IMG/VR virus record: IMGVR_UViG_3300047481_002095 | Span: 1-57,765 of that record | Strand: one strand, 5' to 3' | From: a virus | Length of the DNA stretch: 57,765 nucleotides | Notes under the pieces: generated by a model | What the model was told of the DNA's origin: nothing | The model's database searches: none | The model's input: the letters and a program-made list of their open reading frames with translations, nothing else | In this document: piece after piece, positions 10,528 to 53,652 of the stretch | Layout of the letters: each line of letters opens with the position of its first letter | How positions within the stretch are numbered: position 1 is the first letter of the stretch | Program-made: the position numbers and the translations under genes

Positions 10528-11052
10528 TTGCATTTTGTAGACATAAAATCTTACCCAGATAATTCAGTTCTAGAGAAACATAAGGAACTGTTGAATGAAC
10601 TTGAGTTTATATTTAATTCCATAGATGCCAAAGAACTTTTTATAAAACAATGCAAGGAAAAGAACAGGCTTGACAAGTTTTTATTTTGTCCAAAGTCTTG
10701 CAACAAATTGTGTAAAAAAATGCTTCGTGAAAAAAATTGGAAATCATATAAGCATAAATTCAAATACAAATCTGGAAATTTTAAACATGGAAGCTATGAA
10801 GTTGATTTTTTGAAAAATAGACTTGCTGTAGAGTTACAATTTGGTAAATATGCATTTATGCCAGATAATGTAATGAAGTTTGAAATATTTCACAAACACT
10901 TGAAACTTATTGATGTTGGCATTTTGATTGTTCCTTCCAAACACTTACAATTCAATATGAGTTCTGGCCCCGGTTGTTTTCAGCAAATAATTCAAAGACT
11001 TGATGATCTCAATTATCAAAATCCTTTGATTGTTATAGGTCTTGGAGGTTGA
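10528..11052 (+). CDS. BglII-like restriction endonuclease-fold protein
   Basis: 174 residues with a TTG start; GGGAG lies 5 nt upstream and no ATG fits. The core YEVDFLKNRLAVELQFGKYA is the PD-(D/E)xK active-site strand pair of the BglII family (E..D.....AVE.QFGK), followed by VGILIVPSKHL. In bacteria such enzymes cut specific DNA sites. There is no obvious partner methylase next to it, although three methylases lie elsewhere in the window. Its location inside the PrkA-YeaH-SpoVR row is unusual. Possible roles: host DNA degradation, exclusion of rival phages, or homing. Confidence 0.72.
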   Translation: MHFVDIKSYPDNSVLEKHKELLNELEFIFNSIDAKELFIKQCKEKNRLDKFLFCPKSCNKLCKKMLREKNWKSYKHKFKYKSGNFKHGSYEVDFLKNRLAVELQFGKYAFMPDNVMKFEIFHKHLKLIDVGILIVPSKHLQFNMSSGPGCFQQIIQRLDDLNYQNPLIVIGLGG

Positions 11053-11053
11053 A

Positions 11054-14000
11054 ATGTCTTCCAAATTCTTTCACGGATCAAGCCTACTTGTTGGTGACAA
11101 TACTGTTCCCGGCGTTCAACTATCAAAAGAACTTAAAGAATATATTCCAAAGATTCTTCAGGCCTGTCGCAATTGGGGTCTTGATTTCTATCCTACTGTA
11201 GTCCAATTGCTCAATTATGACGAAATAAGCGAAGTAGCAGCTTATGGAGGATTTCCTGTTCGTTTTCCCCATTGGTCTTTTGGAATGGAATATGAAGAGC
11301 TACAGCGTGGATATGAGTTCGGTGGACATAAGATATATGAAATGGTAGTGAATTGCCTAAATTTTTCCGTAAATGTAAGCAGCGCAAGGGGTTACATCAA
11401 AGTTTCAGATGTAAAAATTGGTGATATTTTATTCAGTAAAAATGGTGGAAGAAGGGTAGTTGCTGTTAAAAAACAAGCAAAAAGCAAAGTTGTGAAAATT
11501 GATGCTTTTGGATATTTTCAGGACACGATATGTACGCCAAACCATAAGTGGCAAGTATTAAGAGGTTATAAACCAGAGTGGGTTGAAGCTAAAGATTTAG
11601 TTCAAGGAGATATTTTGATTGCTGGCGGAAAATATGATAATTTTCTTGGAAGCAGCCCACAAATTATATGGTCAAAACAAAAAGTTTATGAATCCACTTT
11701 GCCAAATGTAAGGTGGAAATTGTTTGATATTAATCCGCCAAAACATATGACTGTTGAATTAGCAGAGCTATTAGGCATTTGTGCTGGGGATGGAAGTTCT
11801 GGTGTGAGTGGATCAGAAAATATGATTGCCATTGCTGTTGGCAAAAAGAACAAGCAATATCAGCTTCATATTCAAAACATTTTTCACAAGGTCTTTAATA
11901 AAGAAGCTGCTATCTATGAAAAAGATTCAGGTGATACTGTCGTTTTGTGTTCCAAGTATGCAGTTGACTATTTTAATGAAATTGGAATGAAAAAAAATGT
12001 TACATTTGAATCTAAGAAAGTTCCCTCAATAATTTGGGAGTCTTCTAATGAATATAAAGCCGCTTTTCTTAGAGGAATTTTTGACACAGATGGTCATGTT
12101 AAGACCAGTTTGCAGATGTGCAGTAAGAGTTTTGAATTGATTAAAGATGTACAGTTGCTTTTGTTAGAGATTGGAATATTCAGTAAGGTTGTTCATGTAA
12201 ACAATAAACACAATAATATTTATGTTCTTTATATTTTAGGTAGAAGTAATCAACTTGCCTTTTCAAAATATGTAAATTTTTCAACAGAATATAAGCGTGA
12301 AGCTTTATTTAATTTGGTAAATTCTGGATATGCGATTGCCCACGGGAATAAACTTCCCAATGTACAAAAAGAAATTTTGAGAAGACTTGAAGAATTGCCT
12401 AATCAAAGAAAACTTCCTGCATGGATTAAGAGATGGAAATGGTTATCTAACAAAAAGGATGTTGGTTGTAACACTTTGTGGAGTTTTGTTTCTAGGCTCA
12501 TGAGTGCTGGATACGATGGATTTGAAGATATATTTGAAACATTGCAAAGTCCTATGTATGTGGTTGAAAAATGTGCCGAATATGGAGAGGAAGAAACAAT
12601 CGACATAGCATTGGATCATGACGAACATGATTTCTTGGCAAATGGATTGGTTTCTCATAACACCAACCCATGTTACATCTATAATCTTGCCTCAAATACA
12701 TTGGCAGATCACTTGACAGTAGTGGCTCATGCAACAGGACACAATGACTTTTTCAAAAACAACATTCATTTTAGTGCCACAGATACCAATATGCTGAACA
12801 AGATGGCGAATCATTCTGCTAGGATTCGCAACTATATGAGCAGATGGGGCAAGGAGCGTGTTACAGAATTTCTTGATCATGTTATGAGACTTGAAACCCT
12901 GATAGATGGATCAGAGGCTTGGACTGAAAAAGTTGTAAAAGACAGAAATATTCGTGATGAAAGAAAATACAATAAGCCACAAATGCTGAATGTTGACAGA
13001 AAAAGGCTATATATGGAGCCTTTCATCAATACTTCTTCTTATCGTAAAAAGAAAAATGAGGAGATACATGATAGAGACATTGCTGATGAAATCGGATTCT
13101 TCAAAGAGCCAACTAAGAACATTCTTGGTTTCATTCGTGACAATGCTCCATTGAAGCCATGGCAATCTGATATTGTTTCCATGCTTTATGAAGAGGCAAT
13201 CTATTTCTTCCCACAAAGACAAACTAAGGTCGCCAACGAAGGCTGGGCCTGTGGAAAAAGGGATACTCTTGTTTGTAGTGATTTGGGCATTTTGACCTTA
13301 GGAGAAATAGTCGAAAATAGAATGGCAGTAACCATTTACGATGGAGAACAAGAAAGAAAAGTTACGAATTGGTTTACTTTTGAAAATCGAGATGTGTATC
13401 GCATAGAAACTCGTCGTGGATATGTTTTTGAGGGTTCTAATAATCATCGCATCATGGGCCATGATGATTGGATTCGCATGGACGCAATGTCAGTTGGACA
13501 GTCATTGAAATTGTCTTATTCTGATATTTGGTCAAATGAATTGCAAGAAATTAATTATGAATTACCAGAAAAAAGAATTGAACTTGATGAGATTGCCGAA
13601 ATGGCATCTGTTACAAAATATCAAGTAAGCTATAGGAAATATCATTACAAAGGTGAAGAAAAAAATGATGTTTTAGGAAATCTGATTCAAGAATATGATA
13701 ATCAAAAAACTACTTTTATGCGAAACAAGAGGAACAAGATTAGTGTTCCTGATTATATGACTGAAGATTTTGCTTCATTTGTCGGCTACATGATTGGCGA
13801 TGGACATATTTCCCTAGTGAAAAGAACTATGGGTTTGACATCTGGGGACAAATCACAAATTGATCATTATGCTACTTTGCTTAAAGATTTATTTGGATTA
13901 GAATGTAAGATAAGATGGGATGGATCATCGAAAAATGGTAGGTATAGGGCTTCGGTTAGTTCTAAAGATTTGGAACTACTTCTTATCCATCTTGGCATGA

Positions 14001-15163
14001 AAACAGGAGTTTGTGCCAGAAGTAAAAATATACCAGAAATTATATTGAAATCGCCAAAGAATGTTGTTACGGCATTCATCAGGTCTTATTTTGACTGCGA
14101 TGGTTATGCTGGAAATGCGGGAGTGATACTCTCCACATCGAGCGAGAGTATGTCTCGACAAATCCAGAATGTGCTTTTGAATTTCAAGATTCTCTCAACA
14201 AGGAGAAAGCAAAAAGATTCATGTTGGCATATTCGGATTACTGGCTCAGAAGCGGTTAAATTTGAAGAACAAATTGGATTTGGTCTTCAAAGAAAACAAG
14301 ATAAATTAAGAAAATATGTTTCTGATCACAAATGGTTTCTGGAAAAGAATCTTGAAGATGAGATTGTTTCTGTTGAAAAAACTGGCACAGACACAGTTTA
14401 TGATATCACAGTTGAAACAAGTCATCGATATTCAGCTTGCGGATTTATAAATCATAACAGCACAGTTGACTCTGTCATCATGGCAGAACAAGGCTTCATT
14501 GGACTTGGTCAAAAGTCTGAGGATTGTGGCATTGTAGAGTATGCTGATCACAAGATGGGAGTTCTTGGTGGCAAGTATAGCATGAATCCTTACAAGCTGG
14601 GATTTTACTTGCTTGCCGATATTCGTGAGAGGTGGGACAAGGGCAGATTTGGAACCGAATATGATGAATGCACAGATATGCACAAGAAAGAGAATTGGGA
14701 CACGGGTGCCATGTTGGGCAAGGAGAAAATTTTCGAGGTTAGGAAGTATTATGATGATCTAACCATGATACATGAATTCTTTACAGAAGAGTTTTGTCGT
14801 AAACAAGAATATTTTCATTGGAAACATTATCCAAATGGCGAATACAGAATCGACACAAGAGACTACAAGACTATTAAAAAGAATTTGATGCAAAGACATC
14901 TTAATGGAGGACTGCCTGATATCAGGCTCATGGAGCCTAATTATCTTGGAAGAGGAATAATGCTATTGCAGCATTATCATGATGGTAGGCCTTTGTACGA
15001 GTCTTATCTAGAAGATGTTTTGTCTTCAATTCGATTCCTTTGGAATAATGATGTTGTTTTGGTTTCAAAGGATGAAAATAGTAAGGAAAAAATTTATTGG
15101 CAAAAAGCAAATTATTTTGAAGTAATGGACAGGGAAAAACTCAACAAACAAGCGAATGTTTGA
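11054..15163 (+). CDS. spoVR: SpoVR/YcgB-family protein interrupted by two inteins
   Basis: The frame codes for 1369 residues from ATG 11054 (GGAGGT upstream). Removing the two inteins (436 and 403 aa) leaves a 530-residue SpoVR (E. coli YcgB is 510). Extein segments SSLLVGDNTVPG, FPHWSFGMEYEEL, TNPCYIYNLASN, HATGHNDFF, QTKVANEGWA and KHYPNGEYRIDTRDY are typical of the family. SpoVR is needed for cortex formation in Bacillus, and YcgB is co-regulated with YeaG/YeaH in enterobacteria. Both inteins sit at highly conserved motifs, as usual for mobile inteins. The start follows the BglII-like gene by 1 nt. Confidence 0.92.
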   Translation: MSSKFFHGSSLLVGDNTVPGVQLSKELKEYIPKILQACRNWGLDFYPTVVQLLNYDEISEVAAYGGFPVRFPHWSFGMEYEELQRGYEFGGHKIYEMVVNCLNFSVNVSSARGYIKVSDVKIGDILFSKNGGRRVVAVKKQAKSKVVKIDAFGYFQDTICTPNHKWQVLRGYKPEWVEAKDLVQGDILIAGGKYDNFLGSSPQIIWSKQKVYESTLPNVRWKLFDINPPKHMTVELAELLGICAGDGSSGVSGSENMIAIAVGKKNKQYQLHIQNIFHKVFNKEAAIYEKDSGDTVVLCSKYAVDYFNEIGMKKNVTFESKKVPSIIWESSNEYKAAFLRGIFDTDGHVKTSLQMCSKSFELIKDVQLLLLEIGIFSKVVHVNNKHNNIYVLYILGRSNQLAFSKYVNFSTEYKREALFNLVNSGYAIAHGNKLPNVQKEILRRLEELPNQRKLPAWIKRWKWLSNKKDVGCNTLWSFVSRLMSAGYDGFEDIFETLQSPMYVVEKCAEYGEEETIDIALDHDEHDFLANGLVSHNTNPCYIYNLASNTLADHLTVVAHATGHNDFFKNNIHFSATDTNMLNKMANHSARIRNYMSRWGKERVTEFLDHVMRLETLIDGSEAWTEKVVKDRNIRDERKYNKPQMLNVDRKRLYMEPFINTSSYRKKKNEEIHDRDIADEIGFFKEPTKNILGFIRDNAPLKPWQSDIVSMLYEEAIYFFPQRQTKVANEGWACGKRDTLVCSDLGILTLGEIVENRMAVTIYDGEQERKVTNWFTFENRDVYRIETRRGYVFEGSNNHRIMGHDDWIRMDAMSVGQSLKLSYSDIWSNELQEINYELPEKRIELDEIAEMASVTKYQVSYRKYHYKGEEKNDVLGNLIQEYDNQKTTFMRNKRNKISVPDYMTEDFASFVGYMIGDGHISLVKRTMGLTSGDKSQIDHYATLLKDLFGLECKIRWDGSSKNGRYRASVSSKDLELLLIHLGMKTGVCARSKNIPEIILKSPKNVVTAFIRSYFDCDGYAGNAGVILSTSSESMSRQIQNVLLNFKILSTRRKQKDSCWHIRITGSEAVKFEEQIGFGLQRKQDKLRKYVSDHKWFLEKNLEDEIVSVEKTGTDTVYDITVETSHRYSACGFINHNSTVDSVIMAEQGFIGLGQKSEDCGIVEYADHKMGVLGGKYSMNPYKLGFYLLADIRERWDKGRFGTEYDECTDMHKKENWDTGAMLGKEKIFEVRKYYDDLTMIHEFFTEEFCRKQEYFHWKHYPNGEYRIDTRDYKTIKKNLMQRHLNGGLPDIRLMEPNYLGRGIMLLQHYHDGRPLYESYLEDVLSSIRFLWNNDVVLVSKDENSKEKIYWQKANYFEVMDREKLNKQANV
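11354..12661 (+). mobile_element. SpoVR intein 1 (LAGLIDADG type)
   Basis: 436 residues in frame. It starts with Cys (CLNFSV) after KIYEMVVN and ends VSHN before Thr of TNPCY. Splicing block motifs: Cys1, CTPNHKW (block B), and a C-terminal His-Asn with +1 Thr. Endonuclease motifs: LLGICAGDGS and LRGIFDTDGHV. This is a complete class 1 intein; the homing endonuclease appears intact because both acidic motifs are present. Confidence 0.93.
13250..14458 (+). mobile_element. SpoVR intein 2 (LAGLIDADG type)
   Basis: 403 residues in frame. It starts CGKRDTLV after ANEGWA and ends INHN before Ser (+1). Splicing motifs: Cys1, GSNNHRIM (block B), and VYDITVETSHRY (block F). Endonuclease motifs: VGYMIGDGHI and IRSYFDCDGY. 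The sequence is not a close copy of intein 1. Confidence 0.93.
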
Positions 15164-19487: not shown

Positions 19488-19892
19488 ATGGAACTTATCA
19501 CAACAACTTGCCAAAAAAAGTGTTTTGGTTTTGATTCTTATCATGGAAGTTGTTGTCGATTAGAAAATCGAGATTATATTATTGGGCCTATTCATGATCC
19601 TCATGAATTTCTTGATCGACTCAATAAGCACTATTCCCAAAATTTTAAGTATTCAGACATTTTTATTGAATATGAGGAGGGAAGTAAGTTGTTTCCAAAC
19701 AAATTTAATTGGCAAAAGGAAAGTGCTTATCCTGCTTTGAGAATTAATTTGACCACAAGTGATAATTCTTGCATATTTTACAACAACCAATTAAAGCTTT
19801 GTACTGTTTATTCTATCAGGCCAAGCATTTGCTCTTCTTTTCTTTGTGATTATTTGCGTGGAGAGCTTGAAAAGACAAAGTCTTTGTCATAA
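19488..19892 (+). CDS. YkgJ-like Cys-rich (zinc/iron-chelating) protein
   Basis: 134 residues from ATG 19488. The N-terminus has C-x-x-x-C and then GSCCRLE, and the C-terminal part has CIFY, LCTVYSIRPSIC and FLC. The Cys spacing with Y-x-x-RP-x-x-C is that of the YkgJ/UPF0153 putative metal-chelating family. Metal and role are unknown. The start is only 10 nt beyond the T-run of the terminator, so it needs its own promoter or read-through; GAGAGC is a weak Shine-Dalgarno. Confidence 0.7.
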   Translation: MELITTTCQKKCFGFDSYHGSCCRLENRDYIIGPIHDPHEFLDRLNKHYSQNFKYSDIFIEYEEGSKLFPNKFNWQKESAYPALRINLTTSDNSCIFYNNQLKLCTVYSIRPSICSSFLCDYLRGELEKTKSLS

Positions 19893-19915
19893 CATCAATT
19901 TTTTAGGAGAATCAA

Positions 19916-21330
19916 ATGGAAAAGAAAGGAGGCAAGCAAGTGGAGATTGTGGGCTACGAACATCTTCACTTGCACTAGCTAACACAGACTTTTCAACTCT
20001 TGATGGTTTTGGCCAAGTAGAAGAATATTGTGTTCGTGCCCCAAAAATAAATCAAAAGTTTCTTTGCATTTCTGACCATGGAATGATGGGTGCCATTCCA
20101 AGGCAAATCAAAGGTTGTGAAAAGATAAATGACAAGATGGGCAAAGATACTTTGTCTCCAATCTTTGCTTGTGAATTGTATTTAAATAGACTTCAAACAG
20201 AAATGACAGAAGAAGGAGAAGGCAAGAAAATATACTCAAGTCTGACAGAAGAAGAACAAAACGAATTTAAGGCAAGCAGTCACCTTCTTGCAATAGCAAC
20301 AAGTCAAGAAGGATATAAGAACCTAGTTCGTCTTTCGTCATGGGGTTGGACTAAGGGATTCTATAGAAGACCAAGAGTCAATTACGAACAACTGAAAAAG
20401 TACAAAGAAGGAATAATTTTCACATCCTGTTGCTATGCAAGCGAAATAGGAAAGGCTTTTGAAAGAGGAGGAGAAGACGAAGCTTTTAATATGGTTGAAA
20501 GATATATTGAAATGTTTGGCAAAGAACAATTTTACCTAGAAATTATGCTTCTCGACTTCAAAAAGCAAAAACCTTATGACGCATTCATTATCAAGGCTAA
20601 AGAAAAATATGGACTAAAGATTATACTGACAAATGATTGCCACTATTGCAACAAAGAAGATAGTCACTATCAAAGACTAATGTTGATGATTCAGACAAAC
20701 AGAACCATATCTGAGATTGAGAAGGCTCTTAAAGAAGATTCTGACCAAGATTTCTTTGAACTTCAGGATGCTAATCTTTGGATGAAATCTGAAGAAGAAT
20801 TAAATGAAAAGTGGTTGTCTGATTACAGCGATGTTATTCCTTACGAAATTTTTTGCGAGGCCAAGAGAACAACAGTTGAAATTTGTAATAAAGCCAAAGG
20901 TGTTCAGCTTGATAGAAGCCTCAAGTTGCCCATTATACCTGATGGTGACGAAAAGTTAAAAGAAGAGATAATTCTTGGCTTTCAAAGGCGTGGACTGCCT
21001 AAAACAAGAGAATACTTAGACAGAATAAAAGAGGAATATAGCCTTATTACGAGAAAGGGTTTTACTAGTTACTTTTTGATACAAAAAATGATGACAGATG
21101 AGGCTCGTAGGGTTTGTCGTGATCTTTTGGGATTTGGTGATGGTTCACAAGCAGTAGGGCCAGCAAGGGGATCAGCAGCAGCCTCTTTAATTTGCTATTG
21201 CCTAGGAATTACGAGTGTTGATCCTGTTAGAGAGGGATTGTTGTTCAGTCGATTTATGAGCGAGGCTAGAGGTGGAAGAACCTTGCAACTAGAATTTAAA
21301 AATATTGATCCATTACCTTCTGATGATTAA
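19916..21330 (+). CDS. dnaE: DNA polymerase III alpha, N-terminal part (PHP + partial palm), frameshifted
   Basis: The real start is ATG 19916 (TTAGGAGA before it), reading MEKKGGKQVEIVGYEHLHLH and then stop TAG at 19976. The rest of the protein continues in another frame from about 19980: TDFSTLDGFGQ, ISDHGMMG, TNDCHYC, YFLI and GPARGSAAASLICYCLGIT. Joined, HLHLH plus TDFSTLDG is the start of the DnaE PHP domain. A stretch of 8 nt (TAGCTAAC, 19976-19983) looks inserted. The coded part ends LLFSRFMSEARGG and then diverges before the catalytic Asp pair, which is supplied by the gene at 29623-32349. Whether the shift is programmed, mutational or an assembly error cannot be told. Confidence 0.8.
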
Positions 21331-25201: not shown

Positions 25202-25549
25202 GGGGCCGTATTAGAATTCGATTCGGATATGCGTCTTGGGAGTGGCATGTAGTGGTTGGTCAGATGGCCACTATAAAATCTGACTAAAGCCTTAACTGGC
25301 GAAACTGTTTACGCTTTGGCTGCTTGATTGCGGTCACGAATTTAGGTAGCTCGTCATAGGCGACCGAAAATTCGATGTAAATTATGACTGGTCTTTTGAT
25401 TCTCAACGGTCATAGACGAGACAAAGTTGATAGTGCTGAAATAGGTTTTGTTTGTTGTGCCTATTCAGATGACATTAAACAATAAAATAAACATGTAGAA
25501 GCTCTCTTGATGTTATGCGAAGACGGCGGGGCAGAACCGCCCGGCTCCA
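25202..25549 (+). ncRNA. ssrA: Transfer-messenger RNA (tmRNA)
   Basis: Acceptor arm GGGGCCG (25202-25208) pairs over 7 bp with CGGCTCC (25542-25548), with a G-U at the third pair, the alanine identity mark. The 5' end continues as AGAATTCGATTCGG, like the tmRNA D-arm region. A tag frame GCC...TGA at 25289-25327 reads ALTGETVYALAA, ending in the usual YALAA. Near the 3' end AAACATGTAGAAGC is the conserved segment before the T arm (stem GGCGG/CCGCC). The T loop GGCAGAA departs from the normal TTCRANN, and CCA is not encoded (CTA follows the discriminator). tmRNA rescues stalled ribosomes and tags the product for proteolysis. Confidence 0.93.
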
Positions 25550-25551
25550 CT

Positions 25552-25917
25552 ATGACTATAATTATTTTTTATTTATCATTAATGATCTTGGTTGCAAACC
25601 TTAAATTTTATGGTTATCAGCCAAGATCATTGATGTTTTCTCCAAGAAGTTCAAGATGGCGTAAGGTCAGGAATGCACATCTTCTCAAAAATCCAAATTG
25701 TGCAATTTGTGGTTCTGATGAAAATTTAACTGTTCATCACTTAAAAAGTTTTAGTCAATATCCAGAACTTGAATTGAGTGTTGATAATTTAATTACTTTG
25801 TGCGAAAATAAAAACTTAAATTGTCATTTTGTGTTTGGTCATCACATGAGATGGACAAATCTCAATGATACTCTTTTAAGTGATATTGAAAAAATCAAGC
25901 ATTATGTAAAAGGTTGA
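25552..25917 (+). CDS. HNH endonuclease
   Basis: 121 residues if started at ATG 25552, which lies 2 nt past the tmRNA 3' end; an upstream start would lie inside the RNA. An internal ATG at 25633 (MFSPRSSRW) is another option. The N-terminal 20 residues are hydrophobic. The core is SSRWRKVRNAHLLKNPNCAICG, then LTVHHLKSF, LITLCE, and HFVFGHH, as in phage and Gram-negative HNH nucleases. It sits directly behind a tmRNA, a place often used by mobile elements. Confidence 0.7.
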   Translation: MTIIIFYLSLMILVANLKFYGYQPRSLMFSPRSSRWRKVRNAHLLKNPNCAICGSDENLTVHHLKSFSQYPELELSVDNLITLCENKNLNCHFVFGHHMRWTNLNDTLLSDIEKIKHYVKG

Positions 25918-26835: not shown

Positions 26836-28053
26836 ATGAAAATTTCCATATTTACACCAACTCACAACACCAAGTATTTGCAAAGGCTTTATCAAACAAT
26901 AAAAAAACAAAGTTATCAGAATTGGGAATGGATTATTTGTCCAAATAATGGTGCTGTTGTTGATATAAAGGACGATCCAAGAGTTGTTGTTTATCCATGT
27001 TCTGGCTCAACAAATATTGGATATTTGAAAAAGTTTGCTTGTTCAAAGGCAATTGGCGAAGTTGTAATTGAAGTTGATCATGATGACGAACTTTTTTCAA
27101 ATGCATTAGAGGAGTGTGCCAAGGCATTTGAAGACCCAACAGTAGACTTTGCCTTTTCAAATTGCTGCGATGTAACAGAAGGATATCAGCCTAGATTTTT
27201 TAATGAAAAGTTTGGATGGGTAAATAGGCCATGTGTGTATGAAGGCAAGCAATTAGTTGAAATGGTTGCATTTCCTCCTGATCCAGCAAGTGTAAGTAAA
27301 ATTTGGTATGCTCCGAATCATTTCAGAGCTTGGAGAAAGTCATTTTATGAACGCATAGGTGGCCATGACGAAAGCATGGATATCTTGGATGACCAAGATA
27401 TTATGTGTAGAACTTATATTCATGGCAAAATGCATCACATAGACAAGCCTCTTTATGTTTATCACTTGCATCCAGAAAATACTTGCTATGGTGAAAAGAA
27501 TGGCAAAATACAAGAATTGTGTGTTGAACTTCATGACAAATATATTTATAAGTTGGTTGACAAGTGGTGTAATATAAACAAATTGAGGAAGATTGACCTT
27601 TGTGGCGGTTTTGACAAGCCATTTGGATATGAAAGCATTGATTTGGCAAATGCGGATATAATTGCAAATCTTAATGATAGATGGCCATTTGAGGATGGAA
27701 GTGTTGGTGTTTTCAGGGCGCATGATGCGCTTGAGCATCTCAAAGACCCAATTCATGTTATGAAAGAGGCCTATAGGTGTCTTGCTCCAAATGGTTGGTT
27801 TTTGACTCAAACTCCTAGCACAGATGGAAGAGGAGCATTCCAAGACCCAACTCATATTTCATTCTGGAACAGTAATAGTTTTTGGTATTACACAAAAGAA
27901 CAAGCAAGATATATCGGCACTCCTGTTAAGTTTCAGTTAAACAGGATCAAGAATTTTTATCCAACTGAATGGCATAAGTTTCATCAAATTGTTTATGTAA
28001 AGGCTGATTTGTTGAAGCCTTCTGGTCGTGTTGCTGGTGGAATGGAAATCTGA
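26836..28053 (+). CDS. GT2 glycosyltransferase fused to SAM-dependent methyltransferase
   Basis: 405 residues. Residues 1-225 are a GT-A fold family 2 transferase: ISIFTPTHN, QSYQNWEWIICPN, EVDHDDEL (D-x-D), and DILDDQDIMCR. From about 250 a class I methyltransferase follows: LRKIDLCGG, SIDLANADIIANL, WPFEDGSVGVFRAHDALEHL. The fusion suggests a sugar that is transferred and then methylated, on a glycan or on phage components. The start ATG has AGGG 9 nt upstream and its own promoter. Confidence 0.85.
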   Translation: MKISIFTPTHNTKYLQRLYQTIKKQSYQNWEWIICPNNGAVVDIKDDPRVVVYPCSGSTNIGYLKKFACSKAIGEVVIEVDHDDELFSNALEECAKAFEDPTVDFAFSNCCDVTEGYQPRFFNEKFGWVNRPCVYEGKQLVEMVAFPPDPASVSKIWYAPNHFRAWRKSFYERIGGHDESMDILDDQDIMCRTYIHGKMHHIDKPLYVYHLHPENTCYGEKNGKIQELCVELHDKYIYKLVDKWCNINKLRKIDLCGGFDKPFGYESIDLANADIIANLNDRWPFEDGSVGVFRAHDALEHLKDPIHVMKEAYRCLAPNGWFLTQTPSTDGRGAFQDPTHISFWNSNSFWYYTKEQARYIGTPVKFQLNRIKNFYPTEWHKFHQIVYVKADLLKPSGRVAGGMEI

Positions 28054-28060
28054 GGCAATG

Positions 28061-29044
28061 ATGCAAAACAATAAAAAATTAGATGATTACTTAAAAACCA
28101 CAAAATTGAATCCAAAATCATACAAGAATTTATTTGAATTCGATTCTGATGAATTGGATGAGTATAGTGACAAGAGATTAACTGCATATAGTCAATGGTC
28201 TACATCTGATAATATACACTTTTTTCCAACTGCAAGAACAATTGATAGGCTAATGCCGGGAACATACGATATTAAGAGCAGTCAAAATCACGGCATTTAC
28301 TTTGAAAAGATACCAGTTATAACAAAAGGAATACTTAGGTTTCCAGAAACGAATTCAGATAAAATTGTTCTTGAAATACAAAAGTTTTGGGAAAGAGAAA
28401 ATATATTCAAGGAATACAATTTGACTCATAAGCGTGGGGTTATGTTGTTTGGGCCTCCCGGCTCAGGTAAAAGTTCAACAATAGCATTGGTGATGAAAGA
28501 TGTAATCGAAAGAGGAGGTTTGGTAATCAATTTTGTGAACCCATCTTTGTTTTTGGCTGGAATTAGAAAGTTAAGGGAAATTCAAAAAGAAACTCCTATT
28601 GTTGTTTTGATGGAAGATATTGATTCTATTATTCAAACAACTTCTGAAAGTGAAGTTCTTAATGTTCTTGATGGTGTTAATCAAATAGAAAAAGTTGTAT
28701 TTCTGGCTACTACCAATTATCCAGAAAGGCTTGGAGACAGGATTATCAATCGCCCTAGTCGTTTTGACAAAAGGTTCAAGATAGGACACCCAAATGAAGA
28801 AAGTCGCCGTTTATACTTGGATTTCATCATAGGTGGACAAGAAAAGATAGAAAATCTTGGTATTGATATTGACACTTGGGTCAAGGATACCGATAACTTT
28901 TCAATTGCACACTTGAAGGAATTGTTTATTGCAGTTGTAATACTTGGAGACAAGTATGAGGACGCAATTGAAACATTGACAAGTATGCGTGAAGAGAACT
29001 TGTCGTCAAGTGATGATGACAATAAGAGAAAGATGGGATTCTAA
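28061..29044 (+). CDS. AAA+ ATPase (BCS1-like)
   Basis: 327 residues from ATG 28061 (GAGG 5 nt upstream; ATG 28058 is adjacent). Walker A FGPPGSGKSS, Walker B VVLMEDID, sensor LATTNYPERL, and an arginine-finger stretch NRPSRFDKRFKIG. The arrangement resembles the Bcs1/FtsH-type classical clade. The N-terminal 100 residues may bind substrate. The C-terminal tail is acidic. The last base of its TAA is the first base of the next ATG. Confidence 0.85.
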   Translation: MQNNKKLDDYLKTTKLNPKSYKNLFEFDSDELDEYSDKRLTAYSQWSTSDNIHFFPTARTIDRLMPGTYDIKSSQNHGIYFEKIPVITKGILRFPETNSDKIVLEIQKFWERENIFKEYNLTHKRGVMLFGPPGSGKSSTIALVMKDVIERGGLVINFVNPSLFLAGIRKLREIQKETPIVVLMEDIDSIIQTTSESEVLNVLDGVNQIEKVVFLATTNYPERLGDRIINRPSRFDKRFKIGHPNEESRRLYLDFIIGGQEKIENLGIDIDTWVKDTDNFSIAHLKELFIAVVILGDKYEDAIETLTSMREENLSSSDDDNKRKMGF

Positions 29045-29622: not shown

Positions 29623-32349
29623 ATGACAGTACAAAAATTTTTGAGTATTTGTGAACAGTCCCTTAAAAGCAAGGGCTTGCATGAAAATCAATCTTATCAA
29701 AAAAGATTGAAGTGGGAAACAGAAGAAATAATTGCCAAAGAAAAGCATCTATATTTCCTTGATTTATATGATAGGAAAGTCAAGTATTCTCACAATCAAA
29801 ACAATTTGCTGGTTTGTTGGTTGATGGGCATAGTTCCCGACCATGACATCAACAAGGAACCAGCTAACTTATTCACAGGCGATTTGCCTGATGTTGATAT
29901 TGATTATATTCCTGTTGTTCGTGACTACTTGAAAAATGAGTGGGCACCTAAAACATTTGGAGAGGAATATGTTTGCAACATTGGCAACTATACAACATTT
30001 GGAATAAAGTCTGCATTGATTGATATGGCAAGAGTTCACGATGAGGATCGTGATGAGGTAATGGCAATCACTAAAAATCTAGATGCAAAGGATGATGAGG
30101 GAAATCCAATCACATGGGACGCAGCACTTAGGCTTGATCCTGAATTCAAGGCATATGTTGAAAAGTATCCTGCTGTTGCAGAAGCCACCAAGAAACTTAT
30201 CAATAGAAACAGAGGAATGGGAGTTCATGCTGGTGGATTGATTGTATCAAGGATTCCTCTTCATGATCTTGTTCCTCTCACAAAAAGAAAAGATAATCCT
30301 CAGGCAAGTGCATGGGTAGAAGGTTTGCATGGACAAGACTTGCAGCCTGTTGGACTTGTTAAATTCGATCTTCTTGTTGTATCGAACTTGTTGCAAATAG
30401 CTCGTTGTTGCGAGATGATCAAAAAGCGTCATGGTCTAGAAAACATTTGTGGCAAAAAAGGAGAACCTGATTGGTCTGATGTTGATGCTTGGAGAAATGA
30501 TCCAAAATCATTGGAAATGGCAAATAATGCAGACTTGAAGTGCATATTCCAATTTGATTCAGAAGGAATTCGTGGATTGGTAAGATCGGGAGGTGTGGAC
30601 AGATTTGAGGACTTGGTTGCTTTTGCGGCGATTTGGAGGCCCGGTTGCTTAAAAGTGTCAATGGATAAGAGGTATGTTGAAAGAAAAAGAGGTCGTGAAA
30701 AGTTTGAAATTCATCCCCTGATAAAACCTGTTCTCGAAAAAACATATGGAGTTATGATTTATCAAGAACAAATTATGCAAATATTAAATCTTGTAGGAAA
30801 TATTCCTCTCAAAGATTGCGAGGCAGTTAGAAAGGCCATTAGCAAAAAGAAATTAGACGCAATTGTCAAGTATAAGGATATGTTCATAGAAAATGGCCAA
30901 AAGAATTTGCAATACACTAAAGAACAGATGGAAGAGTTTTTTAATCAAATACTTTCGTGGTCAGAGTATGGATTTAACGCTGCACATGCAACTGCTTATA
31001 GTTACATATCAGCTTATCTTTTATATTTGAAAGCTCATTATCCATCTGAATTTTATGCAAGCATACTTTCATGTGAAACTGTAACAGAAAAAATTAAAGA
31101 CATTAAGATGGAAGCTAGGATACATGGCATTGATATGCATCGCTTGGATATCAACAAGTCTAAGGAAAATTTTGAGTTGGTGAGAGAAACCATATATTAT
31201 GGTTTTTCAAATGTTAAAGGAATAGGAGAGGGGCCTGCCAAAAAAATTGTTTCAGGACAGCCATATTCATCTTTTGAGGACTTTCTTTTTAGGTGTGGCA
31301 CAGATGCAGCAGTATTAAAACCACTTTTGGGACTTCGCTGTTTTAGGGATCGTGATCCTGTTACTCTTTGGAAATTTGCTGAATATTTCAAAGATAGTCT
31401 CAAGAAAAACACAGACAGAAAAAAGAGATATGACAATTCAATGGAAAGTTATGATTTAGAGTTAGAGGAATTGCTTCCTAATTGTGGCTTCAAATTGCAA
31501 GACCTTTCTGGAGATAGTCCATTTGATAGCGATCAATTCAAATCAAAGTATGACAAAGACGAAGAAATCGAAATAGTTAAAGAATATGAATGTGAAAAGT
31601 CAGAGGGATATGGCAGAATCGAAATGGTATCAGTACCAGTTGTGGAAGGAGAAGTTTTTATTGAAAAGGAAATGATGAGATATTATAAAAAAGTCACAAC
31701 CAAAAAAGTATGGAATAAATGGAAAGAACTCAAGAAGTTGTGGATAAAGAGAACTAGGACAATACAAAAGTTTTCGCAATTTGTTGAAAAGGAAATGCCA
31801 AGATTAACTGAATTTGATCCTGACAAGTATGAAATATCAAAAGAACTTGAAAAGGAATTTAAGAACCCGATAGTTTGTGAAGAAAAGTATTATGGATTTG
31901 CATGGATACATGAGTTGGAAAGAAGTCCTGATTATAAAGGAAATATGACATTTGAATCACTTAGACATTCAGATGGAGTTGTAAGTCCTGTTGAGGTCAG
32001 GGTTTTGAAAGTTGAAAAGAAAACAAGTAAAAAGGGGTCAAGTTATTATCAGGTTTTAGCAGAAGATGTGACTGGACAACAAAATAAAATTAATTTATGG
32101 TCTGATGATTATGAAAGATTTGGTAGAGAATTTGTAAAAGGTAACTTACTTAGATTAAGACTCCAGCCTCCTTCTGGAGGTTTTCCAACATTCTTGTTAG
32201 AGTCAAACTCTGGTATTGGAAGAATGCGATATCAAAAGAAATATCGTGATAAAGAGGATGATCCAAGAGTTTTTGTCATGGCTTTTGGCAAAAAAGAAGA
32301 AGAGAAGTTCATGACAGAACAAGAAGTTTTAGATTCTTTCAAATTATAG
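29623..32349 (+). CDS. dnaE: DNA polymerase III alpha, C-terminal part (catalytic palm, fingers, HhH, OB)
   Basis: 908 residues. GDLPDVDIDY carries the two catalytic Asp residues of C-family polymerases. After it come NIGNYTTFGIKSAL, NRGMGVHAGGLIVS, FQFDSEGIRG, GVMIYQEQIMQI and FNAAHATAYSYISA, all standard DnaE blocks. GFSNVKGIGEGPAKKIV is the HhH region, and VEVRVLKVEKKTSKKGSSYY an OB fold. Residues 20-85 (QKRLKWETEE...YFL..., LLVCWLMGI) look like a degenerate copy of the palm segment that is intact in the N-terminal gene at 19916. The two halves lie 8.3 kb apart. No intein halves are seen, so I expect non-covalent assembly. Confidence 0.92.
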   Translation: MTVQKFLSICEQSLKSKGLHENQSYQKRLKWETEEIIAKEKHLYFLDLYDRKVKYSHNQNNLLVCWLMGIVPDHDINKEPANLFTGDLPDVDIDYIPVVRDYLKNEWAPKTFGEEYVCNIGNYTTFGIKSALIDMARVHDEDRDEVMAITKNLDAKDDEGNPITWDAALRLDPEFKAYVEKYPAVAEATKKLINRNRGMGVHAGGLIVSRIPLHDLVPLTKRKDNPQASAWVEGLHGQDLQPVGLVKFDLLVVSNLLQIARCCEMIKKRHGLENICGKKGEPDWSDVDAWRNDPKSLEMANNADLKCIFQFDSEGIRGLVRSGGVDRFEDLVAFAAIWRPGCLKVSMDKRYVERKRGREKFEIHPLIKPVLEKTYGVMIYQEQIMQILNLVGNIPLKDCEAVRKAISKKKLDAIVKYKDMFIENGQKNLQYTKEQMEEFFNQILSWSEYGFNAAHATAYSYISAYLLYLKAHYPSEFYASILSCETVTEKIKDIKMEARIHGIDMHRLDINKSKENFELVRETIYYGFSNVKGIGEGPAKKIVSGQPYSSFEDFLFRCGTDAAVLKPLLGLRCFRDRDPVTLWKFAEYFKDSLKKNTDRKKRYDNSMESYDLELEELLPNCGFKLQDLSGDSPFDSDQFKSKYDKDEEIEIVKEYECEKSEGYGRIEMVSVPVVEGEVFIEKEMMRYYKKVTTKKVWNKWKELKKLWIKRTRTIQKFSQFVEKEMPRLTEFDPDKYEISKELEKEFKNPIVCEEKYYGFAWIHELERSPDYKGNMTFESLRHSDGVVSPVEVRVLKVEKKTSKKGSSYYQVLAEDVTGQQNKINLWSDDYERFGREFVKGNLLRLRLQPPSGGFPTFLLESNSGIGRMRYQKKYRDKEDDPRVFVMAFGKKEEEKFMTEQEVLDSFKL

Positions 32350-42839: not shown

Positions 42840-43391
42840 ATGAATATGAATACTGGAAGGTTTCAAAAAGATCGTCGTGAAGATCAAACAAGAGTTAATT
42901 GGCAAATAAAGTCCCCACAAGTAAGAGTTGTTCGTGATGAGGAACAATTAGGCGTATTGCCAATAGATCAAGCAAGAAAGTTGGCTATGGATCAAGGCTT
43001 AGACCTTGTTGAAATTGCGCCAACAGCAAAGCCCCCTGTTTGTAGAATCATGGATTATGGAAGATTCAAGTACGAACAAAATATCAAGAAAAAGGATGCT
43101 GCCAAAAAACAAAAGGAATCACAAGTACAAGTCAAAGAAATTAGGCTAAGGCCAGCCATTCAAGATCATGATATTGAAACCAAGGTAAACCAAGCCAAAA
43201 AGTTTATTGAAGACAAAAGCAAAGTTCAATTCAATCTTTTATTTAAGGGCTTTCGTGAACTTGGACATAAAGAGCAGGGCTTCATGGTTATGCAAAAGAT
43301 TTTGAAGAGCATGGAGGATTTTGCAACTGTAGAGAAAATGCCTGTTTTGGAAGGCAATCGCATAACCTGTTCTTTCACACCCAAAGAGTGA
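42840..43391 (+). CDS. infC: Translation initiation factor IF-3
   Basis: 183 residues, full length (bacterial 170-180). N domain: LGVLPIDQARKLAMDQGLDL, then VEIAPTAKPPVCRIMDYGRF (the IF-3 signature). Linker rich in Lys. C domain: VKEIRLRPAIQDHDIETKV and LLFKGFRELGHKEQG. IF-3 keeps 30S subunits free and checks the start codon. The start is a normal ATG, not the AUU used for autocontrol in enterobacteria; the GAGGTG site is rather far (13 nt). Together with bS21 it suggests phage control of initiation. Confidence 0.95.
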   Translation: MNMNTGRFQKDRREDQTRVNWQIKSPQVRVVRDEEQLGVLPIDQARKLAMDQGLDLVEIAPTAKPPVCRIMDYGRFKYEQNIKKKDAAKKQKESQVQVKEIRLRPAIQDHDIETKVNQAKKFIEDKSKVQFNLLFKGFRELGHKEQGFMVMQKILKSMEDFATVEKMPVLEGNRITCSFTPKE

Positions 43392-51662: not shown

Positions 51663-51699
51663 TTTCTCAAAAATGTAATTGTGTTTAGTACATAGTTGT

Positions 51700-53652
51700 A
51701 TGGCTAAACCAAGAAAAAAACCTGTAAAGCAGGAAAAGCAACCTCAAAACAATCAACACGCAAATGTCAAGAAACAACAGTTTCATGTTGAGTTTTTGAA
51801 TGCAGCACAAAAATTAGCTTGGTCTGCTTTTGATCAACATGAAATTCTGTTTTTGTTGGGTAGTGCAGGTTCTGGAAAAAGTCATCTCGGTTGTGCTTTT
51901 GCCATTAGTGAAATACTTGCAAAAAGAAAACAAAAGATTGTCATAACAAGACCAACCATTGAGGCCGGGGGTACTGGACTTGGATATCTTCCCGGATGCC
52001 AACCCCTTACACAATCAATACTTACAGCAAGTGGTTGGACTACTATGGGTCAGATAAAACTAGGAGACAGAGTTATAGGCAGAGACGGAATGCCTACAGA
52101 GGTAATTGGTATTTATCCAAAAGGAAAGAAAGATACATATAAGGTTACAACATTCGATGGAACTTCTACTATTTGTTGCCTTGATCATTTGTGGTACACG
52201 CAGACAAAAGAAGAAAAGAACAAAAAGCAACAAGGAAAAGTTAGATCAACCAATGAAATTATTTCTGATCTAAAAAATGGTATTAAGCATTATCTTCCAA
52301 GGAATGAACCAGTTCATTATGACAAGAGGAATTTATATATTCCTCCATATACTCTTGGAGTTTTGTTGGGAGATGGTCACACAGAAAAAACTCGTGTCAG
52401 ATTTGCTAGTGCAGACCAAGAAATAGTGGAAAGGGTTACTAAAGAAGTTAAAAGCATGGGAGTTTATTGCAAGCAAGCAAAAAAACAATATAGTAAGGCT
52501 TGGTCTTATACTTTATCAAGTTCTGAAGGATATCGGGAAGGTATAAAGCCGGTAAAATTAACAGAAATAGAAAATGGGCATGAGTTTTATTTTGCGACAA
52601 ACGAAAAAGTAAGAGATTTTGTTTCTTGTAAAAAAGGAACTATTGATTCTAGGATCAATAAAGGAGCTATTGTTGATGGTTATAAGTATGAAAAATATGG
52701 TGAAGTTTGGAGAAATCCAGTATTAAAGCATTTGAAGCAATACGATCTTTATAAAAAGAAGGCGTGGGATAAATTTATTCCAGATGATTACAAGTATTCA
52801 AGTGTTCAGGACAGAATTGATATTCTTCGTGGACTTTGTGATACTGATGGTTCATGTCGCAAAAGGATAAAAGATCAAGTTACTTTTTATACTACTTCTC
52901 TTAGACTTGCAAACGATGTAATTGAGATTGTCCGATCACTTGGCGGGAGAGCAAGGTCGAGAAGCAGAGATAGGACTAAAGAAGAGAATAGAAATATTTT
53001 TGCTAGAAGGGTTTCGTATGAAGTTTCGATAGCGATGCCAAAACAAATTAACCCTTTTTATTTGAAAAGAAAAGCGGATAGATTTAATGGTAAAAATGTT
53101 TCTAATTTAGAAATTACATCTATAGAAAAAATTGGACATGAAGATGTTCAATGTATAAAAATTGACAATCAAGAACATTTATATTTGACTGATGATTTTA
53201 TTGTTACGCACAATACTGCCGACGAAAAATTACATCCATATATGCTTCCTTTATTTGATTGTATGGATAGGTGTTTGGGTGCCAATTCTCCATTAAGGGA
53301 ATACATAGCCAAATGCGTGGAAATAGCACCTTTGCAATTCATGAGAGGAAGGACATTTCATGATGCTGTTTGTATTTTGGATGAAGCCCAAAATTGCAAT
53401 TACAATGAAATCAAATTGTTTTTGACAAGATTTGGCCAGAACAGCAAGGTTATTATAACAGGTGATCCTATGCAAAGCGATTTGCATCCAAGAGATAGAG
53501 CGTTGATGCATGTTGTTGAAAGACTGTCAGGATTGAAAGGCGTGGGAGTTATTCATTTCAAACCAAGTTCCATAGTTCGTCATCCTTTGATTGCTGGAAT
53601 CTTGGAAAGACTAGAGGACAAGGAGAATACAGATGGCACTAGTAGTACCTGA
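51700..53652 (+). CDS. phoH: PhoH-like ATPase interrupted by an intein
   Basis: 650 residues from ATG 51700; without the 406-residue intein the product is 244 aa. LLGSAGSGKSHLGCAFA is Walker A, KIVITRPTIEAGGTGLGYLP is the PhoH block, then (after the intein) TADEKLHPYMLPLFDCM, ILDEAQNC (Walker B) and KVIITGDPMQSDL. PhoH is an ATPase/helicase-like protein common in phages; its role is unsettled, with links to RNA metabolism. The next gene starts inside its last 20 nt. Confidence 0.93.
   Translation: MAKPRKKPVKQEKQPQNNQHANVKKQQFHVEFLNAAQKLAWSAFDQHEILFLLGSAGSGKSHLGCAFAISEILAKRKQKIVITRPTIEAGGTGLGYLPGCQPLTQSILTASGWTTMGQIKLGDRVIGRDGMPTEVIGIYPKGKKDTYKVTTFDGTSTICCLDHLWYTQTKEEKNKKQQGKVRSTNEIISDLKNGIKHYLPRNEPVHYDKRNLYIPPYTLGVLLGDGHTEKTRVRFASADQEIVERVTKEVKSMGVYCKQAKKQYSKAWSYTLSSSEGYREGIKPVKLTEIENGHEFYFATNEKVRDFVSCKKGTIDSRINKGAIVDGYKYEKYGEVWRNPVLKHLKQYDLYKKKAWDKFIPDDYKYSSVQDRIDILRGLCDTDGSCRKRIKDQVTFYTTSLRLANDVIEIVRSLGGRARSRSRDRTKEENRNIFARRVSYEVSIAMPKQINPFYLKRKADRFNGKNVSNLEITSIEKIGHEDVQCIKIDNQEHLYLTDDFIVTHNTADEKLHPYMLPLFDCMDRCLGANSPLREYIAKCVEIAPLQFMRGRTFHDAVCILDEAQNCNYNEIKLFLTRFGQNSKVIITGDPMQSDLHPRDRALMHVVERLSGLKGVGVIHFKPSSIVRHPLIAGILERLEDKENTDGTSST
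51997..53214 (+). mobile_element. PhoH intein (LAGLIDADG type)
   Basis: 406 residues in frame. It begins CQPLTQSIL after GYLPG and ends VTHN before Thr (+1). Splicing motifs: Cys1, CLDHLW (block B), HLYLTDDFIVTHN (blocks F and G). Endonuclease motifs: LGVLLGDGHT and LRGLCDTDGS. It sits in the conserved loop between Walker A and Walker B. Confidence 0.93.

Follow-up and report, generated by a model that had tools for sequence, protein, structure and literature searches.

The DNA analysed here (the window, 57,765 nt of an IMG/VR virus record) contains a one-piece tmRNA gene at 25202-25549 (+), whose match to the Rfam model confirms that it belongs to the tmRNA family, with an elbow of variant type. 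Most probably it encodes a working one-piece tmRNA of the phage, in which the tRNA-like domain is closed by an alternative contact between the D loop and the T loop. Few bases of cellular tRNAs are as strongly conserved as UUC in the T loop and G18-G19 in the D loop; judged from the sequences compared below, viruses use an alternative version of this contact, which is near-invariant in cells. The paired swap of D loop and T loop recurs in phage tmRNAs and tRNAs as well as in the consensus of the alphaproteobacterial tmRNA, and was overlooked in an earlier sequence-only reading of the same DNA.

The one-piece tmRNA model RF00023 matched positions 25202-25552 (+) over its full length (model positions 1-374) with 95.3 bits (gathering cutoff 47, E = 6e-36), and the covariance-model check suggested by the sequence-only reading thus bore out its proposal of a one-piece phage tmRNA. 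The gene was missed by ARAGORN, which made no call anywhere in the window, and no further tRNA-like gene was seen in the rest of the 57.8-kb record. A weak second RF00023 match at 29723-29785 (12.4 bits) lies inside a DNA polymerase gene and was taken as chance. No named phage was found close to this tmRNA at the DNA level. The predicted fold of the RNA, with discriminator A73 at 25549 taken as the mature end, was better than those of 100/100 dinucleotide shuffles (z = -3.0).

The 5' strand of the acceptor stem, GGGGCCG (25202-25208, +), pairs at seven of seven positions with CGGCUCC (25542-25548), including G3-U70, the identity pair of an alanine acceptor; the 3' segment (25542-25552, +) continues with A73 and with CTA in place of CCA. 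Both the G3-U70 acceptor and the lack of an encoded CCA had been read correctly from the sequence, and CCA is likewise not encoded in the relatives L005, L006 and L010. The tag reading frame GCC...TGA (25289-25327, +) translates to ALTGETVYALAA before the stop TGA and ends in the degradation signal ALAA, as had been noted. The proposal that the tag is unusual and differently handled by proteases did not hold, the ALAA end being ordinary and the relatives carrying ALTGTNQLALAA and ALTGETQLALAA. Across tmRNA relatives at about 60-73% nucleotide identity the tags remain in frame. An H-type pseudoknot, TAGTGG/CCACTA plus GTCAGAT/ATCTGAC (25250-25284, +), lies 5' of the resume codon and the tag; it shows compensatory changes in five relatives and persists in relatives as distant as about 48% identity. 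Compensatory changes also accompany the conservation of the acceptor and T stem. Pairing, translation and comparison thus show that the predicted RNA has an intact acceptor, T arm, upstream pseudoknot and tag, all of them retained in relatives.

The T arm (25525-25541, +) consists of GGCGG, the loop GGCAGAA and CCGCC, with 5/5 stem pairs. Its loop (25530-25536) reads G54 G55 C56 A57 G58 A59 A60 and belongs to a class, GGCRGNA, that recurs in phage tmRNAs and tRNAs. The earlier description of a T loop without the TTC core was right in that the loop is unusual and lacks TTC, but C56 is kept, and the departures from TTCRANN are limited to positions 54, 55 and 58. In the stemless D loop UAUUAGAAUUCGA (25209-25221, +), A25213-G25214 were taken as A18-G19, where canonical tmRNAs have GG, on the basis of sequence and co-variation. 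Because one extra base follows A18-G19, with which the register in a single RNA could slip by one base, the register was assigned from relatives. The canonical combination of a UUCRANN T loop with G18-G19, which is usual for tmRNA without being defining, is absent, and RF00023 still matches; present are a GGCRGNA loop and A18-G19 of the RF01849 type. Its G55/C56 and the A-G of its D loop place the RNA in the alternative-elbow group.

Co-variation of the two loops was followed in phage tRNAs by a heuristic cloverleaf search that put no constraint on either loop but could find only genes with an encoded CCA. Contigs selected by GGCAGAA yielded 281 non-redundant tRNAs, and 401 once long variable arms were allowed. 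Within the 401, U55 (with C56) goes with G18-G19 in 246/246 tRNAs and G55 (with C56) with A18-G19 in 123 of 126; the Fisher p of this 18/55 association, about 1e-93, is an overstatement because related tRNAs are not independent. Eleven apparent cases of G55 with GG in the set of 281 turned out to be mostly AGG read as GG by the scoring rule, and stand as AG/GG in the later table. Position 19 co-varies with position 56 by Watson-Crick pairing (U56/A19, A56/U19, G56/C19). Fully swapped T loops form the class GGCRGNA, half-swapped TGCRANN loops, in which U54-A58 is kept, also go with A18, and loops AGCGTTA, CGCRANN and ATCGATA obey the same 55/18 rule. Two further kinds of natural phage tRNA were seen: tRNAs with A19-U56 or U19-A56 replacing G19-C56 (e.g. 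L205, L224, L264, L269, L271), and tRNAs with the recurrent non-canonical loop ATCGATA, mostly with a Glu anticodon, which retain G18-G19 and occur in phage arrays such as those of L011, L033, L142 and L176.

As controls for ASCERTAINMENT, contigs were selected by a canonical TTCGAAT tRNA in the way the first set had been selected by GGCAGAA. Here 7/194 bystander tRNAs had G55, all seven with A18, and G18 was found in 260/261 tRNAs with U55/C56; the alternative elbow accounted for about 4% of the CCA-encoding tRNAs in these contigs. When tmRNAs were selected by the D loop only, those with TAGNATCGA had G55 T loops in 99/99 distinct tmRNAs (GGCAGUA 45, GGCGGUA 36, UGCRAUA 16, others 2), and those with TGGATTCGAC had UUC in 18/18. 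On this comparative evidence, the D-loop and T-loop changes belong together. Since they co-vary, the window tmRNA is predicted to have the complete alternative elbow (A18.G55, G19-C56, G54.G58); the geometry of A18.G55 and G54.G58 is inferred from the co-variation.

A pattern made up of this T arm and an acceptor end of the alanine type matched 40 stretches in IMG/VR and three in 84,980 bacterial and archaeal genomes; this is a contrast between match numbers, not normalised to the bases in the viral collection, and so no measured rate. All three cellular matches were tmRNAs with encoded CCA and none was a tRNA; the genomes behind them have ordinary, high-scoring tRNAs. The viral matches included the one-piece tmRNAs of L005, L006, L009, L010 and L015 with the near-copy L025, besides permuted tmRNAs, tRNA-Ala genes, one tRNA-Gly nearby and short tagless tmRNA-like RNAs; three pattern-matched records (G009, G031, G040) hold tmRNAs with another T-loop type. 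A wider pattern without the alanine end found GGCAGAA in complete cloverleafs belonging to many isotypes, and fully swapped T loops in phage tRNAs span 14 amino-acid classes. No named phage with the L122 alternative-elbow tRNA was found. Because unrelated contigs repeat GGCAGAA together with a matched D loop, the T loop of the window is neither damaged nor unique, and sequence error, decay and a one-off loop were ruled out. The short tagless RNAs (about 80-85 nt; L013:2366-2446, L022 on the minus strand, L034:4933-5012, L149 on the minus strand) combine a tmRNA-type acceptor, a TTTCGA or ATCGA D loop and the GGCAGAA T loop, with no space for a tag.

The window is collinear, save for inserted stretches, with the 595-kb uncultured huge phage LR756511 from PrkA to IF-3. 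In LR756511 a one-piece tmRNA sits between SpoVR and an AAA ATPase, the same place as in the window, where the ATPase gene (28028-29044, +; PF00004) is collinear with 57% identity. The two tmRNAs share the syntenic site, the one-piece form and the lack of an encoded CCA, whereas that of LR756511 has a canonical elbow (ACGGCUUCGA, UUCAAUU) and the tag ANPEFAMAA. The window tmRNA is 61.8% identical to the L005 family vs 48.6% to the syntenic tmRNA of LR756511, and the L005-family contigs are otherwise dissimilar to the window except for a homologous downstream HNH ORF. In the window this HNH endonuclease ORF (25507-25917, +; PF01844) lies immediately 3' of the tmRNA, its mechanical start falling inside the tmRNA, and its homologue downstream of the L005 tmRNA is 37.6% identical over 93 aa. 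Since the window tmRNA resembles those of otherwise dissimilar phage contigs more than it does the syntenic one, it was probably acquired by replacement at a fixed place, perhaps together with the adjacent HNH gene, rather than by stepwise change; the two data points suggest this but are no proof. The HNH gene is possibly a companion of tmRNA transfer.

Clues to the host are mixed: one virion protein is 38.6% identical to that of an alphaproteobacterial phage, and the remainder points to a huge phage. LR756511.1 also holds a second tmRNA-like RNA of 137 nt (2250-2386; L565) with 50.4 bits to RF00023, G3-U70 and a canonical UUC loop. DNA polymerase III alpha, adjacent in LR756511, is split in the window into two ORFs (19846-21330 and 29623-32349) 8 kb apart, with no intein seen at the break. 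Intein/LAGLIDADG-type domains interrupt both SpoVR (11042-15163) and a PhoH-like protein (51679-53652). PrkA and DUF444 adjoin SpoVR as in LR756511, and a BglII-type restriction endonuclease ORF (10528-11052) lies between DUF444 and SpoVR.

In the mechanism we propose, G18.Psi55 would be replaced by A18.G55 and the reverse-Hoogsteen U54.A58 by G54.G58, with G19-C56 kept, and the two loops would therefore dock in the usual way. Docking matters in other tmRNAs, where D-loop/T-loop contacts are needed for SmpB binding (PMC3968760). In tmRNA the usual T-loop modifications are m5U and pseudouridine, which TrmA and probably TruB introduce (PMC3968760); the window T loop has no U54 or U55, so these enzymes cannot modify it, and the RNA is most probably a rescue RNA that works without TrmA/TruB modification. 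Host alanyl-tRNA synthetase would charge it via G3-U70, the CCA-adding enzyme would finish its 3' end, and SmpB and EF-Tu of the host would deliver it to stalled ribosomes, where the tag would direct rescued products to host proteases. The search for SmpB that had been suggested as a check was run and found none in this fragmentary record or in 13 other pattern-search records; host SmpB would therefore be required. Rescue may in this way be kept running during infection by a phage with its own IF-3 (42840-43391, +; PF05198 and PF00707; within the collinear block, 51.6% identical to LR756511) and peptide deformylase. The earlier suggestion that the phage tmRNA keeps ribosomes free is plausible.

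As to why the elbow changed, our leading guess, held with somewhat less than even confidence, is neutral compensatory drift, in which paired changes can replace either of two small modules, 18-55 and 54-58, with function preserved, under weaker selection on phage RNAs. Half-swapped loops, with U54-A58 beside A18.G55, are common as drift would have it, further classes exist (e.g. AGCGTTA, ATCGATA, A19-U56), and the same elbow is found in cellular tmRNAs of Alphaproteobacteria and of a Patescibacteria-like phylum. The dominance of the single class GGCRGNA among fully swapped loops is, however, more uniform than free drift predicts. A second and rather doubtful explanation, which would come on top of a working tmRNA, is escape: defence nucleases, toxins or surveillance would read the normal elbow (UUC loop, G18, Psi55 or m5U54), and altered phage tRNAs and tmRNA would survive an attack on host tRNAs. 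The spread of the alternative elbow in phages over many tRNA isotypes and both tmRNA forms fits escape, as does the contrast between viral and cellular matches of the tmRNA/tRNA-Ala pattern. The RNA-repair ligase RtcB, present in 14/50 alternative-elbow contigs vs 4/50 canonical-only contigs (two-sided p = 0.017), points the same way, but the comparison is small and its contigs share ancestry. Phage tRNAs have been argued to evade tRNA-cutting defences by changes in the anticodon loop, although that work has no mention of the T or D loop (PMC10264068). Alternative and canonical tRNAs occur together in 46/59 contigs, and Alphaproteobacteria have the same elbow in their own tmRNA, both of which speak against escape. 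We know of no defence nuclease shown to read the T loop.

A tagless tmRNA of phage DS6A has been reported to block host rescue (PMC11915505), and the window RNA might by analogy be a decoy of that kind, or simply a remnant. The altered elbow, the lack of an encoded CCA, the lack of SmpB in the record and the tagless RNAs with the same elbow in L013, L022 and L034 would fit; the window RNA resembles that of DS6A in being a phage tmRNA-like RNA, but unlike it has a tag. Because relatives conserve the ALAA tag frame, pseudoknot, acceptor and T stem, all intact here, and because the elbow change is matched on both loops, such a decoy or pseudogene seems very improbable. A functional tmRNA thus remains the preferred reading. 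A broader idea holds that the re-coded elbow (A18.G55, G54.G58 and other variants), carried in many phages by tmRNAs and by tRNAs of most amino-acid classes, is a way round host modification enzymes, nucleases or toxins that read the near-universal elbow, and that the window is a case where a canonical-elbow rescue RNA was replaced by an alternative one; it is speculative and in our judgement unlikely. Should the change indeed have a protective effect for phage RNAs, it would be a means of counter-defence other than altering the anticodon loop.

The window tmRNA points to a wider phenomenon in phage tRNAs. From matched natural changes in so many isotypes it can be seen which elbow parts tolerate exchange, and natural elbow variants are ready-made material on the roles of elbow modification and of elbow-reading factors. 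Because ARAGORN misses many such genes, phage tRNA and tmRNA repertoires are under-annotated. In the literature covered, which includes few subscription journals and no bioRxiv preprints, no report was found of the alternative elbow in phage tRNAs or in one-piece phage tmRNAs.

The elbow is not confined to phages as far as tmRNA is concerned: a phage-only elbow is ruled out by RF01849 and by some Patescibacteria-like tmRNAs. In 287 genomes of one such phylum, a matching T arm stood at a tmRNA-type end in five, and another five matches were not tRNA-like. Among the cellular sequences surveyed, which do not cover every loop class in other phyla, the alternative elbow occurs only in tmRNA, whereas in phages it occurs also in tRNAs. 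Named phages with permuted tmRNAs of this kind are Erythrobacter phage vB_EliS-L02, Methylophilales phage Melnitz-1, DSS3_MAL1, Rhodobacter phage RcRudolph and Mesorhizobium phage Cp1R7A-A1, and vB_EliS-L02 also carries a tRNA with GGCAGCA and A18. In vB_EliS-L02, an 8.3-kb stretch without GenBank-annotated genes (L188:7515-15816) holds 32 tRNA genes called by ARAGORN and the permuted tmRNA; in Melnitz-1, a glutamine riboswitch (RF01739, 52.8 bits; L190:3190-3238) lies directly downstream of the tmRNA.

A laboratory counterpart exists: Zagryadskaya, Doyon and Steinberg in 2003 reportedly selected, in E. coli, active suppressor tRNAs whose D and T loops were altered, with G54-A58 or G54-G58 in place of U54-A58. 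Those tRNAs came from a laboratory selection, unlike the natural phage RNAs, and the likeness is a lead and not a test. Compared with the one-piece tmRNA of RF00023, the window RNA has the same G3-U70, stemless D loop, T arm, long P2, pseudoknot before the tag and ALAA tag, but differs in GGCAGAA and A18-G19 vs UUCRANN and G18-G19 and in that CCA is not encoded. With the permuted alphaproteobacterial tmRNA of RF01849, whose Rfam consensus has the T loop GGCgGUA and the D loop AAAuAGGAUCGAC (GGCGGUA with AAAUAGGAUCGAC), that is, an A18/G55/G58 elbow, it shares the elbow; unlike that family, its gene is not permuted, the 5' half standing before the 3' half in a single gene, and the RNA is one-piece.
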